A stretch of 64,000 bases of DNA, from the NCBI RefSeq assembly GCF_030253575.1, contig NC_080564.1:3764501-3828500 (forward strand). Reading direction: 5' to 3'. Under the pieces are notes generated by a model. The model was not told where the DNA came from and made no database searches. It worked only from the letters and a program-made list of their open reading frames with translations. Position numbers and translations under genes: made by a program. Positions 9,746-33,500 of this stretch are shown piece after piece; positions within the stretch are counted from its first letter, which is position 1; each line of letters opens with the position of its first letter. Source of the stretch: Rhododendron vialii. Taxonomy: Eukaryota; Streptophyta; Magnoliopsida; Ericales; Ericaceae.

Positions 9746-10163
9746 AAATTCTATCCGCCATAGGTGGAAATCATGGGGTTTCTACCACCGTGTGTGGGTC
9801 CTAGAAGACTTTTTTTGTTATAATCTGAACCGTTCATCTTGTAGAACACATAGAGTAGTATACTCATTACAAAAATCAGCTTGATTGGATATCGATAGGT
9901 ATATCAAAACTTGAATTTTGGTTTACAGAATGGAGGGTCATAGATTTTGAAGTTAAATTCTTTATGGCAGTCCATTTCCTAAACCGAAATTCAATTTTTA
10001 ATATACCTATTGATGTTCGACCAAACTCATTTTTTGCGTGCATATACTCTTATGTGGACTCTGCAAGATGAACAGTTCAAATTGTAACAAAAAATGCTTG
10101 GTGAGACCTGTAACGGGCTGTGGTGGAAAACCAAAGATTTCCACATGTGGTGGAAAAAATTTT
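9746..10163. mobile_element. Foldback (hairpin) MITE, CCGTTCA/ATCAGCT core family
   Basis: The two halves are imperfect inverted copies: AAATT...CCATAGGTGGAAATC at the left answers GATTTCCACATGTGGTGG...AATTT at the right. Inner arms pair through AACCGTTCATCTTG and CAAGATGAACAGTT, then through the GGTATATCAAAACTTGAATT stretch and its complement. The left arm has AAAATCAGCTTGATTGGATA, the core shared with other hairpin elements here. No coding capacity. Confidence 0.65.
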
Positions 10164-10503
10164 AACTCATTATTTTAACAGCCGAAACAGTAACAATGAA
10201 AATGGCTCCTTCTTTAAAGCCTCTTGGCGAGTTGATGTTACAATTAGGGATACCTTCGAATTGTTGTTAGGATATTGATTCATTTTGAAGGGTGAACCTT
10301 CCTTTTTTTCCCTAAAAAAGTTACACATCTCCTTTAACTCACCAAAGAGTGCAAAAGCAGATAAAAGGGCTTTGCTTCCTTCATACATATCCCACCTATG
10401 GTACGTTTGAAAATATCAAGATTGGGTGGTCAATAGTCCCCCATATCAGCAACCATATCAGCAACCCCAATTCATGGTATTGTCACATGGAGAAGTTTTT
10501 TTT

Positions 10504-10704
10504 GGTGCCGTGCGGAGTAACACATGTGGTACCCCGTCCGCAATCTCAACCGTTCAAAAATGTTTTTGACGGTTCGATTTTAGAGAGAAAGAAAAAGAGA
10601 ATGGTCGGGTGAAGAAAGAGAGAGAATAAATCTGAACCGTCCAAAACATATTTGAACGAGTGAGATTGCCGACGGGTATAGTCGCATAGTACCTGCTCGG
10701 CACC
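10504..10704. mobile_element. Short MITE with GGTGCCG / CGGCACC ends
   Basis: The outer arms GGTGCCG and CGGCACC enclose second arms CGCAATCTCAACCGTTCAAA and its approximate complement near 10639-10665. A purine-rich stretch (AGAGAGAAAGAAAAAGAGAA) fills the middle. Related sequence is recognisable at 13371-13603 and, in part, at about 5240-5400 in the P450 intron. The target duplication is unclear because the flanks are T and A runs. Confidence 0.55.
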
Positions 10705-11150
10705 AAAAAATTTCTGTGTCACATTTCATTAAAGTGAGTGAAATTCAAATATCACATACTACTGTACTTTCTTTCTATGCTTTTCTCACCAGTTTTATTT
10801 ATTTTCCCTTTTTAGGAGATCAACAAATTCTTCTCCATTTCCCACCCACATGGCATGTTGAATTCATAATTTTTTTGCTTTCCAACGGCCTCTTCCACAT
10901 ATACTTAAATATTTTCCCAAAATAAAGAGGAAAATATAATAGAAAATTAAATAAAAGCTAAGAACATTAAAAGTCTACACTCCATGCCCTAAATCATCAG
11001 TTACTCCATGCCAAGAAAGCCTAACGCACACCAACCAAGACAGTAATGTACATTCAAACCCTACCTAAATAGACCATCTCTGAACCGGGTTCAACTTCAA
11101 CATCTCCGGTTTTCATCCTAAACCCCTATCTAAAAACTAAACGCCATCCT

Positions 11151-29428: not shown

Positions 29429-29689
29429 TAGCTCCTAAGTTTTATGAGTTCAACAGTATTTTTCATTTTGAAGATTGAGTTTGAATACAGTACTTGGATT
29501 ATAATTGGAGATGCTCTTATGAGTATAATAACAAATCCATTTCAAAAATTTGAACAAGCCCGTATCAAATTTGAATTAACTTTGTTCGTTTTACGGCTAT
29601 TACCAGTAATTTAAAATCTGAATATTCAAAATATCTTTCATCATTTCTCTTAATTTTTCTTTTGTATTTTTTTTAAAGTGGATACAGAA

Positions 29690-30073
29690 ATGCTACTGGT
29701 ACAGCAAGTGCTGTATGGACAGCGAATACAGCGCGCTTTGGGCCCATCTCGAGTCCATCAAAGATAATCAGAGTCGCTCATTTTGTTCAAAATATTTTTT
29801 TTGGGGTCACCGTAAAAAATCAGCTCCATCCGATATCATTAAGAGCGTTTACAAAACGTCCAATTTCGCTTCAAAATTTAGTCTAGCAATTTAGCAAACA
29901 TGGACATTTCATAAACGCCCTTCACGATATTGGATGGAGCTAATTTTTGACAAGAATCTTAAAAAAAATATTTTAAACAAAGTGAGCGGTTTCAATTATC
30001 TGTGTTGGACCCGAGACGGGCCCAAAAGCTCACTGTACATGCTGTCTGTACAACTCTTGCCGTACCAATAGCA
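29690..30073. mobile_element. Hairpin MITE, CCGTTCA/ATCAGCT core family
   Basis: ATGCTACTGGTACAGCAAG ... GGACAGC at the left pairs with GCTGTCTGTACAACTCTTGC ... ACCAATAGCAC at the right. AAAATCAGCTCCATCCGATA pairs with ATATTGGATGGAGCTAATTT. The loop is around 29880. Non-coding. Confidence 0.7.
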
Positions 30074-30530
30074 CAATTCAAGTGGATAATAGAAACCACG
30101 TGCGAACAATACACGTCACGGGGTCATCCACAAACCTTTGTCCTTGGAATCTGGATGCTGCAAAATAAAAAAACAAATCTAGTTTGGATTAGCTTCGTCA
30201 TCTGAAGAAAGATCTTTACTATTACCAAAACTATTTTTAGATCCTTATGATTTCCCAATAATATCACTATTACTGAAATGCTGCTCGGATTAGACGGTTC
30301 ATATTCGTATGCGTTCAAATTCAACTCAAGCCGTTCATGTCGAGATGAAAGATCGGATTGGTCACTCGACACCGCTTTGCTGGAATGCTGCTCGGCAGCA
30401 TTGATATCTAACTTCTAGTTGTAGAGAGAGAAAAATGAGGATTGAGAGAGTCTAAACATACATGCATGGATAGTCACCATGATGATCAGATTCAGACCAG
30501 ATTTCACACACAAACACACAAACACACATT

Positions 30531-33500
30531 TCAAGGAATCACTGGCCCAAACATCCTCCTACACTCCACCGACGACTTCTGCTCGCCACCCTCGCAAAAG
30601 AAAAAACTCGCCGGACACCGGTACAAGCAGTTCCTCCCCAACTGGACCGTAACCGAACCCGGATCCGTCACCTTCATCAACGGGCCTGGTATGGGTCCGA
30701 ACAGGTAATTCCCACCCAGCAACAGCCTCTCGAACTGCGACACCCCGGCGCCGGGTAAAACCGCCCGGATGGCGTACTGGGTCGGAATCATACCCGTGAA
30801 CCTGTTGTTCTCCAGGGATAGGGAGGAGAGCTTGGGCATTAAACCCATGAAGGCCGGTAACAGTCCTTGGAGCTGGTTGTTGCTTAGATCCACGGCTATG
30901 AGTGGTGGGTTTTGTTGGGCCCAGTTGTAGGGTACTTGAACCGACCCGAATTGGTTGTAGGAGAGGGTGAGTTGCTCGAGAGACGGGTGGGTGAAAAGAC
31001 CCGATGGGACTGACCCGCCGAGCTTGTTGTGGCTCAGGTCCATTACCTACAGAAAAAAGGAGCTAAATTTTTAATCAAATGAGGTGAGAATGTTATGGTG
31101 AAATTTGCATGGAAATTGTTTTACTCCGTATTTGATAATGGTACAAGTAAGCTCCCGTTCTATTAAGATTCTTAATTTTATAAGTACTTATTTTAAATTT
31201 TACAAGAGAGATCATTCTTTTATAATACATCACTTTTAATTTATAAAATTAAATACTTATTTGACTTAACAAAACGGGGTCTAAATATCCAAATGCTGCA
31301 AAAATAAATGACCAGCTCTAGCACTACGTAAATAAGAATATAATGCGTTTGAAATTGTTCGATGGACTTAGATTTCACATGATTGTACATTGACTATATA
31401 TACCCGTACCAAACGATTGCAAACATATCTATATCTGAACATATCTGTGGAAGCATTTCGAAAATAATTGTACAAACAAAAATGGTACGTAGTAAAACTG
31501 AAACTACAAAAGGGTGAATACTATTTGGGACATACCTGATCTATTCTGTCTCCACATTTTGGCCTTTTTTCCGCACATCTTAAATAAGCACTAAGTCTAG
31601 GTACATTACATTTAACCACTACGTACATTTTTTGTAGGGTTCACTTCGGATTCCAAAAAAATACAGAAAAATGTCCATAAATTTTAGAATAATATTTTAT
31701 CGGGCAATGTAAAAAATCAGCTCCAACGGATATCGGTAACTATTATTTCTTGATTCGTAGGGACAAAACTGTGCAGTTGAGCAGTTTCGACCATACAAAT
31801 CAAGAAATAATAGTTACCGATATCCGTTGGAGCTGATTTTTTACATGGCCCAATAAAATATTATTCTAAAATTTATAAATATTTTTCTGTATTTTTTTGA
31901 AATCCGAAGTGAACCTTACAAAAAAATATAATAGATGATGTAGTGAATAAATGGTAGACGTAACATCTCTCATAAATAAGTTCGTAAATGGTAGTAGTAG
32001 TAAAGTATTTAAGATTGTTTGACTTCTTTATAATAAACCGTATGATAATCCCAATAAAGGGAGAAAAAAAAAATGTCAATTTTTGTATTACCTCCGTCCG
32101 GATTTAATTATTCATAGTTCTATTCTAACCAACTAAAAAACGGATTATATCTTTGAATCCGTAATGAATTTTAAATTGAAACATATAATCAATTGAAAAA
32201 TGACACAAATTCTAAAAAAAAACTATTAAATCCGGACGGAAAGAGTAGTTCCCATCAACTACTTAACTTATTAAACTCATGGTACTTTTTAACCAAATCC
32301 AGGAGTGCCAAAATCGAAGGTTTTATTAAATTATGTTCCCAATTTTTTGAAAAAGCAATAACGAGGAAAAAAAAGTGTATATTAGTACCTGACATTCTGT
32401 CTTGTTTTTGTATTTAATGAACCTTTTATGGATTTTAATCATATTTTTCCTTTCAAGTTACTTCTAAATTCCGAAAGGTAAAAGCTTTTGACTCCCCCAA
32501 AAAATTCCAAAAAGAAAAAATAAATCTTTTTAACATAAAATATCCAAAAGACAATTCAAACATCTGGCCTACTTTTCAACTATTTTTTTTAAACAATTTT
32601 TTTTTTAATCTAAAGTAAAGTTATTTCTACTAAACAAAACACTTAACGCATTTTACGCATTTTCTTCCATTTTACGCATTTTCTTCCACTGAACTAAAAC
32701 ACCCGTGCATATTTTCTTCGTTGTTAGTGACAGACAATCTTCGGACGAATACGAAGAACAGATTATGCAACACATTTTTAACAACTTTTAGTATAGTGAA
32801 AACACCGTAAATAGCTTGCTATAGAAGCCTACCGGAAACGGCACCGGAGTCTAAAAAGTGTATAACTGATTATTACCTGCAAATTCACCATACTCGTTAA
32901 ACTCGCCGGAATATTCCCTTCCAGTTGATTATTCCGCATGATAAATTCAACAAGAGACGCCGGAAGCGTAGCCGGGAGTTCGCCGGAGATGGCATTATCG
33001 CTGGCATCCAAGAGATTAAGGCTACCGAGTTGACCCAGATCGGGAAGCTCGCCGCTGAGCTTGTTCCCTTGGACACCGAGCCTTACCAAATTCTTCAGAC
33101 CGTTGACACTCCACGGCATTGTGCCCTCCAGCTTGTTATTATCAAGGTAAAGCTCTTGAAGCCCGGATAAAGACCCGATAGAGTCGGGTACTGGCCCGGA
33201 TAGCGAGTTAAACGAGAGAATGAGTCGGCTCAGCCGGGTCAAGTTCGAGAGCGAGTCGGGTATCGAGCCGGAGAAGTAGTTGTTGGAGAGGTCTAGGGTT
33301 TGGAGGTAGGGGAGGTTCCAAGAAGAGGAAGCGAGTGACCCGGAGTAACCAGCCGAGTCGAGGGCGAGTTCGGTGACCCGGCTCGAGCCGGAGATCACGG
33401 CGTCGCATCGGAAGCCGCAGGTGAACTTTTCGGTGAAGAGGCTGTCGCAGGGGTCGAAATTGAAGTCCCACGAGGCGAGGCAGGAGCCGGGACTCAGTGA

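Follow-up and report, generated by a model that had tools for sequence, protein, structure and literature searches.

Miniature inverted-repeat transposable elements (MITEs) are usually short, non-coding, present in many copies and conserved at their termini, and it is by these termini that MITE families are usually detected and assigned. The 64-kb stretch of contig NC_080564.1 analyzed here (the window) raises the question of what kept an inner segment alike among hairpins whose outer arms differ. Within the window, which is the scope of all copy counts and comparisons, we found eight hairpins and three decayed copies that most likely form one old, diverse Mutator-like family split into subfamilies. 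We lean toward the view that they are hairpins of non-autonomous Mutator-like elements (MULEs), whose inner zone was kept as a docking site for a transposition protein while the copies were jumping. The gene families encoded in the window suggest that it is of plant origin.

Core motif and boxes of the hairpin arms

The core motif, searched as AAAATCAGCT with at most one mismatch, occurred 24 times in the window compared with 9.4 ± 2.8 times in shuffled sequences, and 0 of 100 shuffles reached 24. It was exact at 9872, 22069, 29816, 31713 and 62959 and had one mismatch at 13055 (AAAATCGGCT) and 15495 (GAAATCAGCT), which confirmed it at every place named by the initial annotation. A strict 20-mer version (AAAATCAGCTHATCCGATAT), by contrast, had no match within 3 mismatches in the window because the next base also varies. 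On the opposite strand, the core was found with at most one mismatch in the second arms of three hairpins (15633-15642, 22186-22195 and 29938-29947) and was exact at 31831-31840; a match at 13154-13163 was the third, internal core copy of the hairpin at 12930. The second-arm cores were more diverged in the hairpins at 9746 and 12930 (AAAATGAGTT and AAAATCGGTT). All six hairpins annotated at first had an inward-pointing core in both arms, with no more than 2 substitutions in the first ten bases. Long inverted repeats were found at I3, I4, I8, I9 and I11 and at 9740-9942/9963-10168.

The set carrying the motif proved larger than the sites first listed, all of which stood: it also included hairpins at 19512-19889 and 37174-37542 and decayed copies at about 20869-20951 and 57181-57435. 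The site near 62960 did contain the core, but it belonged to a solo arm with a second direct core at 63093 rather than to a full hairpin. The eleven elements are as follows (TSD, target site duplication).

9740-10168, hairpin E1: TSD ATTATTTTA at 9731-9739/10169-10177; ends GAGT; cores at 9872-9893 (+) and 10012-10033 (-); from arm alignment, the perfect 9-bp TSD and profile
12904-13379, hairpin E2: cores at 13055-13076 (+), 13142-13163 (-) and 13212-13233 (-); outer ends uncertain, arm alignment 12901-13379; no TSD found; from inverted repeats I3 and I13 and profile
15361-15776, hairpin E3: TSD TTACGGAGTA at 15351-15360/15777-15786; tips CAGAAAGTCT and CAGAAAGACT; cores at 15495-15516 (+) and 15621-15642 (-); from alignment, TSD and profile
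19512-19889, hairpin H19, outside the first list: diverged cores at 19616-19637 (+) and 19763-19784 (-); no TSD found; from inverted repeat I5 and a held-out E value of 0.0008-0.0011
20827-21126, decayed hairpin E9: arms at about 20827-20935 and 21013-21126; left inner arm with a profile match at 20869-20951, closest to E1 and E7
21948-22317, hairpin E4: TSD TTCCAACAA at 21939-21947/22318-22326; left end CAACCC, right tip CAGAAAGTCT; cores at 22069-22090 (+) and 22174-22195 (-)
29685-30079, hairpin E5: TSD AAGTGGATA at 29676-29684/30080-30088; left tip CAGAAATGCT, right end GAATTG; cores at 29816-29837 (+) and 29926-29947 (-)
31589-31971, near-perfect hairpin E6, ends tentative: arm alignment 31609-31953; cores at 31713-31734 (+) and 31819-31840 (-); from inverted repeat I4, 92% complementary
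37160-37561, hairpin H37, ends tentative, outside the first list: arm alignment 37174-37542; cores at 37290-37311 (+) and 37406-37427 (-); from inverted repeat I6
57134-57470, decayed facing inner arms E8, ends approximate and set by eye: 57181-57280 (+) and 57435-57325 (-); right arm closest to E5
62829-63133, + strand, solo left arm E7 of E1 type: core at 62959-62980 and a second direct copy of the core region at 63093-63114; right arm not found; start inferred from the end of E1, the alignment beginning at 62838; from alignment to E1 and profile

The elements were thus short, with about 11 copies in 64 kb. The arms of the eight hairpins were 163-215 bp long, and the hairpins were almost entirely palindromic, internal repeats being seen in E2 and E7 only. 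In E2, the core segment was present a third time, at 13115-13171 inside the hairpin. Over 13047-13171, this copy was inverted and 95% complementary to the left-arm copy, an arrangement that resembles MULEs with extra internal terminal inverted repeats (TIRs). The inner arm of H37 was closest to that of E3 (inner similarity z = 31). E8 was found with profile E values down to 1.4e-10 and 2.8e-6 (H37 held out), and its inner similarity to E5 had a z score of 17.7. For E9, the profile E value was 0.0003-1.4 depending on the element held out and 0.02 with the full profile; the inner similarity of E1 and E9 had a z score of 7.8. Outside the left arm of E8, at 57090-57190, a small extra inverted repeat (GAGACTCCGAAATGCATTCCA / GGGATGCATTTCGGGGTCTCA, by eye) was seen, a head-to-head duplicate of part of the outer arm.

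An alignment of the arms around the cores gave a collinear inner arm of about 120 bp, made up of a GGGTCC box, a CCGTTCA box and the core AAAATCAGCTCNATCCGATATC. The left arm of E3 serves as the example:

15429-15435, + strand: GGGTCC box (GGGTCCC), its recurrence in other arms judged by eye
15452-15458, + strand: CCGTTCA box, starting 43 bp outside the core
15495-15516, + strand: core box (GAAATCAGCTCAATCCGATATG)

The GGGTCC-like box started 23 bp before CCGTTCA in E3, E4 and E5 (by eye). The start of CCGTTCA was 42 ± 1 bp outside the core. A match with no more than one mismatch lay at 41-43 bp in 11 of 20 arms, representing 7 of 11 elements; in 5 further arms the best match was at this distance with more mismatches. 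The spacing was not fitted by E2 (both arms), the right arm of E6 or E7, and that of E8 and E9 is partly circular, since the profile that found them contains the box. In a random control with a slightly wider range (41-44 bp, at most one mismatch), 87 of 20000 positions gave a match. The initial annotation placed the core usually 40-60 bp inside a CCGTTCA block. Where this box is present, it mostly starts at 41-43 bp, but it is missing from the hairpins at 12930 and 31628, which have TCCATAAA or TTTATAAA there. Because 42 bp corresponds to four helical turns of B-DNA, CCGTTCA and the core would lie on one face of the helix.

Conservation of inner and outer arms between elements

The conservation of the two parts of the arm was examined with profiles built with whole subgroups removed, in 6 sets, separately for the inner and the outer arm. 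E7, E8 and E9 were excluded from this hold-out test, from the between-element conservation profile and from the left-right arm counts given below, the last since they have no two clean arms. The inner-arm profiles recovered 7 of 8 held-out elements with E values down to 2e-16: E2/E6 were found at 2e-8 to 5e-6, E3/E4/E5 at 4e-8 to 2e-16, the left arm of E1 at 3e-9 and H19 at about 1e-3. None of the held-out arms was recovered by the outer-arm profiles in the 6 sets at E values up to 10. Ten dinucleotide-shuffled windows, searched with the full profile as a control, gave ten matches at E < 10, the best of them 1.7.

Between-element similarity was then compared with 100 shuffles over 27 pairs, the close pair E2-E6 being excluded from the averages. 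The z score was 40 in the core, 17 in the CCGTTCA block and 3.2 near the loop. In the outer 60 bp (outside -75), it was 6.0-6.5, weak yet above the null. Among all 55 pairs of the 11 elements, inner similarity had z > 3 in 34 and outer similarity in one (E1-E7), in a comparison where the inner stretch was longer than the outer one; the close-pair comparison was repeated with inner stretches of 58 bp. Two such stretches were 65-82% identical in the close pairs, compared with 53-58% after shuffling, and the outer stretch was at or near the shuffled level in 5 of 6 close pairs. The exception was E1-E7, with an outer identity of 0.61 against 0.52 and a local score of 34 against a null maximum of 25. 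Hold-out profiles, between-element z scores and close pairs thus all bore out the idea that the inner arm is the conserved part of these elements, unlike in the usual MITE. The pattern is real and well supported, in an ordinary kind of element; what is unusual is that the inner arm is conserved among subfamilies whose outer arms are unrelated.

Could unrelated hairpins have come to carry such short motifs by chance or convergence? The outer arms are mostly unrelated and H19 and H37 are weak matches, as this explanation would have it. However, held-out recovery went down to 2e-16, with a best value of 1.7 in the shuffled windows, and the 42-bp spacing is fixed. We find a chance origin scarcely credible, and for E1-E6 the held-out recovery, the shuffles and the spacing refute it.

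A second explanation is modular spread by end-swapping, in which a conserved inner arm gains new outer ends by recombination or by template switching during repair. E2 and E6 fit it well, being 75-82% identical inside position -78 and 41% identical outside, where the null is 43% (0.41/0.43). E3-E4 (0.49/0.46), E4-E5 (0.50/0.49) and E5-E8 (0.46/0.44) also lost their similarity outside, and the count of outer similarities above z = 3, one pair against 34 for the inner arm, points the same way. Yet E2 and E6 lack firmly defined ends, E1 and E7 retain inner and outer parts together, and the outer identity of E3-H37 was slightly above the null (0.61 compared with 0.54 ± 0.025). The ends of the bounded elements bear on this explanation as well.

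Ends, arm decay and a candidate docking site

Perfect TSDs of 9, 10, 9 and 9 bp were found on E1, E3, E4 and E5, that is, on 4 of the 8 full hairpins. A scan of 11 hairpins gave those of E1, E3 and E5; that of E4 was seen by eye and confirmed as an exact 9-mer (there is an indel in the ends of E4). A perfect 9-bp repeat was present at 15 of 20000 random position pairs when ±3 bp was allowed and at 0 of 20000 at exact ends. In E1, E3 and E5 the arm alignment stopped no more than 6 bp from the TSD, and in E4 it extended 19 bp beyond the end defined by the TSD. The flanks of E6 (TTAAATAAG/ATAAATAAG) agreed in 8 of 9 bases, a weak candidate that was matched by 346 of 3000 random pairs and was not counted as a TSD. 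H37 had an A-rich 10-bp repeat (AAAAAATAAG) at 37150-37159/37562-37571, which is also weak evidence. MULEs have TSDs of 9-11 bp and TIRs of typically 100-500 bp (PMC3310237). The TSDs of E1, E3, E4 and E5 and the arms of 163-215 bp fall within these ranges. Because perfect 9-10 bp TSDs were present on half of the hairpins, these are probably non-autonomous MULEs.

The tip CAGAAA, followed by GTCT, GACT or TGCT, was found next to the duplication at both ends of E3, at the right end of E4 and at the left end of E5. It was not found at the left end of E4, the right end of E5 or either end of E1. On the two strands of the window together, the pattern CAGAAAKKCTA, which was written from the observed ends so that its counts are descriptive, occurred 14 times when up to one mismatch was allowed, compared with 5 times in the reversed control. 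The distance from core to end was nearly constant, at 121-135 bp, in the four bounded elements. The claim that outer ends differ completely between elements held for most pairs. E1 and E7, however, share an outer arm, and the CAGAAA tip is present in 3 of the 4 TSD-bounded elements. Set against the usual MITE, the tip is shared by these three elements, but the next 50 bp is not conserved. Wholesale swapping of ends would not keep a common tip together with a near-constant distance from core to end. Moreover, the outer zone differed more even between the arms of one element (83/383 left-right mismatches, 22%, compared with 82/678, 12%, in the inner zone) and may simply diverge faster. The shared tips, the near-constant distance and the outer arm of E1/E7 fit fast divergence of a spacer equally well as swapping, and we regard end-swapping as a possible but rather unlikely source of the pattern.

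The two arms of one element provide a clock that runs after insertion. In the 8 hairpins, left-right mismatches were as frequent in the core (21/176) as in the flanking inner arm (61/502; p = 1.0). Transitions made up the bulk of this decay, amounting to 10-12.5% along all zones, with 17/176 in the core and 151/1302 elsewhere (p = 0.53). Transversions were less common in the core together with the inner arm next to it (6/360 compared with 25/610, p = 0.039) and more frequent in the outer arm (28/359); in the four bounded elements alone, the outer-inner difference had p = 0.07. We read these low inner transversions as a sign that the arms were alike inside and already unlike outside at insertion. 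The core thus shows no detectable protection after insertion, though it is the most conserved part between subfamilies. Because it decays like the adjoining arm once inserted yet is conserved between subfamilies, the constraint on the core seems to have acted during mobility; on balance, a transposition signal explains the core better than a host function does.

The higher left-right identity inside than outside (12% compared with 22% mismatches), with the excess in transversions, also agrees with a mechanical origin, in which strand switching during replication perfects palindromes near the loop. Such a process can bring the two arms of an element into line but has no means of making separate elements resemble each other, and the zone next to the loop was in fact less conserved (16.8% left-right mismatches; between-element z of 3.2). 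We consider this highly improbable as the reason for the inner similarity.

Another explanation takes the inner segment to be selected by the host, either as a source of small RNA or as a regulatory protein site near genes. The features that surround the hairpins, from a protein-family scan covering 9 of the 21 open reading frames (ORFs) listed in the window and from Rfam, are as follows (LRR, leucine-rich repeat).

1107-1766, - strand: retrotransposon gag
4224-5165 and 7488-8096, + strand: cytochrome P450 parts
11151-11774, - strand: GATA zinc finger
23951-24022, + strand: tRNA match (Rfam, E = 4e-9)
24669-26672, 30531-31043 and 32829-33644, - strand: LRR proteins
44655-46853, - strand: microspherule-protein domain

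No transposase was found among the 9 scanned ORFs. E2 lies about 0.5 kb upstream of the putative GATA-factor gene. E6 lies between two LRR-coding ORFs on the minus strand (32829-33644 and 30531-31043), which look like exons of one putative gene, with E6 in its putative intron; given this location, a long-hairpin transcript may be formed. The predicted RNA fold of E6 was a near-perfect hairpin of -211.8 kcal/mol (z = -31). These positions, the fold and the few left-right transversions in the core would suit selection by the host. On the other side, any hairpin MITE folds in this way, so that the fold is uninformative about the core. Small RNAs could arise from transcribed hairpins, but the same would be true of any palindrome, and the core is left unexplained. 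At gathering thresholds, Rfam gave only the tRNA at 23951-24022 in the whole window and no microRNA family. The proposal in the initial annotation that the inner segment was selected for its own sake is not upheld for a small-RNA source or a regulatory site of the host, since the mismatches (21/176 compared with 61/502) and the transitions (17/176 compared with 151/1302) indicate a core that decays like its neighbors. We judge host selection very unlikely.

The reading that we prefer, a docking site kept while the copies were mobile, draws on the observed family, its fixed spacing, the contrast between inner and outer arms, the TSDs on half of the hairpins and the absence of detectable core protection after insertion. 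Each arm would have a tip of about 10 bp, followed by about 50 bp of poorly conserved outer zone and then by the conserved inner zone, about 120 bp long. The tip would be the place where the element is cut, and the outer zone would be a weakly constrained spacer or an exchangeable end. The inner zone probably serves as a bipartite docking site, bound by the transposase or by a partner protein, and the transposase would be supplied in trans by an autonomous relative elsewhere in the genome. The inner zone would be under selection only while copies still jump. Mutator TIRs contain transposase binding sites, and MURA binds a conserved motif of about 32 bp (PMC3310237). The candidate docking site of the inner arm would be the counterpart of this motif within the maize Mutator TIR.

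Several observations weigh against a docking site. H37 was missed when its relatives E3 and E4 were also held out (no match and E = 5.7), and E1 was recovered by one arm, the held-out E value of its right arm being only 0.23. Four of the 8 full hairpins had no convincing TSD (none in E2 and H19, weak candidates in E6 and H37). The extreme tips of one element often disagree, as in E4 (CAACCC/CAGAAA) and E5 (CAGAAA/GAATTG), and the excess of CAGAAAKKCTA was gone at up to two mismatches (65 compared with 62 in the reversed control). At 121-135 bp from the ends, the core lies deeper than the MURA site of maize Mu. Finally, the low number of transversions in the core also allows a reading as weak protection, and with 176 core positions the test of protection after insertion is blind to a weak effect.

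Related systems and what the inner module may mean

Like maize Mutator and the tomato SLMULE elements (PMC3310237), the hairpins have TSDs of 9-10 bp, arms well over 100 bp and no coding capacity seen. They differ in that the arms fill nearly the whole element and in that one inner module is common to subfamilies with little or no detectable outer-arm similarity. MULEs with extra TIR copies have been described for tomato, Arabidopsis, maize and rice (PMC3310237), and the third core copy of E2 fits them. In one tomato MULE family, it is the internal copy of a tandem TIR that holds the most conserved stretch, which is not so in another family, and the authors of that study propose that important cis-elements sit at different places in different MULE families (PMC3310237).

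The MuTAnT family of Medicago truncatula is a MULE foldback family with a type copy of 292 bp, 144-bp arms and 9-nt TSDs and is frequently found near genes (PMC4486113). The hairpins here are likewise short, putatively MULE-derived foldback elements, with TSDs of 9-10 bp and in some cases near genes. MuTAnT differs in being described as one family that inserts in TA microsatellites and has tips of zero to four G (PMC4486113), whereas the four bounded elements here lie at four unlike target sites, none of them a TA repeat. The FARE elements of Arabidopsis are likewise foldback elements with long palindromic repeats and are classed as MULEs (cited in PMC4486113). A modular foldback element, Foldback4 of Drosophila, is described in the ModuleOrganizer paper (PMC2955051).

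Foldback elements of the FARE type, as a rule, are almost entirely palindromic and have internally repetitive arms. A dense cluster of mutually inverted unit copies with AAATTAAGTGTTCCAAATTTCAATC-like and GTTCAAAC-like stretches was seen at 59428-60865 (I1, I2, I7, I15-I18, I22 and I23), perhaps consisting of nested or multi-arm foldback elements. At 56470-56838 lies a conventional hairpin MITE with ends GGGTCCTTCGGCTAAAAAA (GGGTCC) and TTA on both flanks, which we take to be Tourist-like (PIF/Harbinger); it is a hairpin of similar size, but its ends are conventional. This hairpin (H56) and a short palindrome (H33, 33864-33968; GTTAAATAGAACTGCGAATTT..., arms 85% complementary) located just upstream of the LRR gene were rejected as family members, since neither had a core within 1 mismatch and the scan gave no TSD with matching ends. 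We found no described family with this inner module in the open-licence literature, nor anything there on small RNA with MULE hairpins, and motif strings printed there did not identify the family. No relatives were found by motif pattern in viral and prokaryote contigs (three patterns in IMG/VR, one in GTDB), as expected for plant DNA.

In the hairpins studied here, the family signal lies in the inner arm, and next to none is detectable in the terminal zone. Because the signal sits in the inner arm, methods based on ends would split one family into many or miss the link between its members. It is also conceivable, if distinctly unlikely, that CCGTTCA and the core, four helical turns apart, form a portable two-box module that successive MULE lineages kept while replacing the outer ends. 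If this were true, a hairpin element could switch to another cutting end, and perhaps to another transposase, and still be recognized. The two-box inner module with its fixed spacing is also a specific candidate, open to test, for the site that a plant MULE transposase recognizes.

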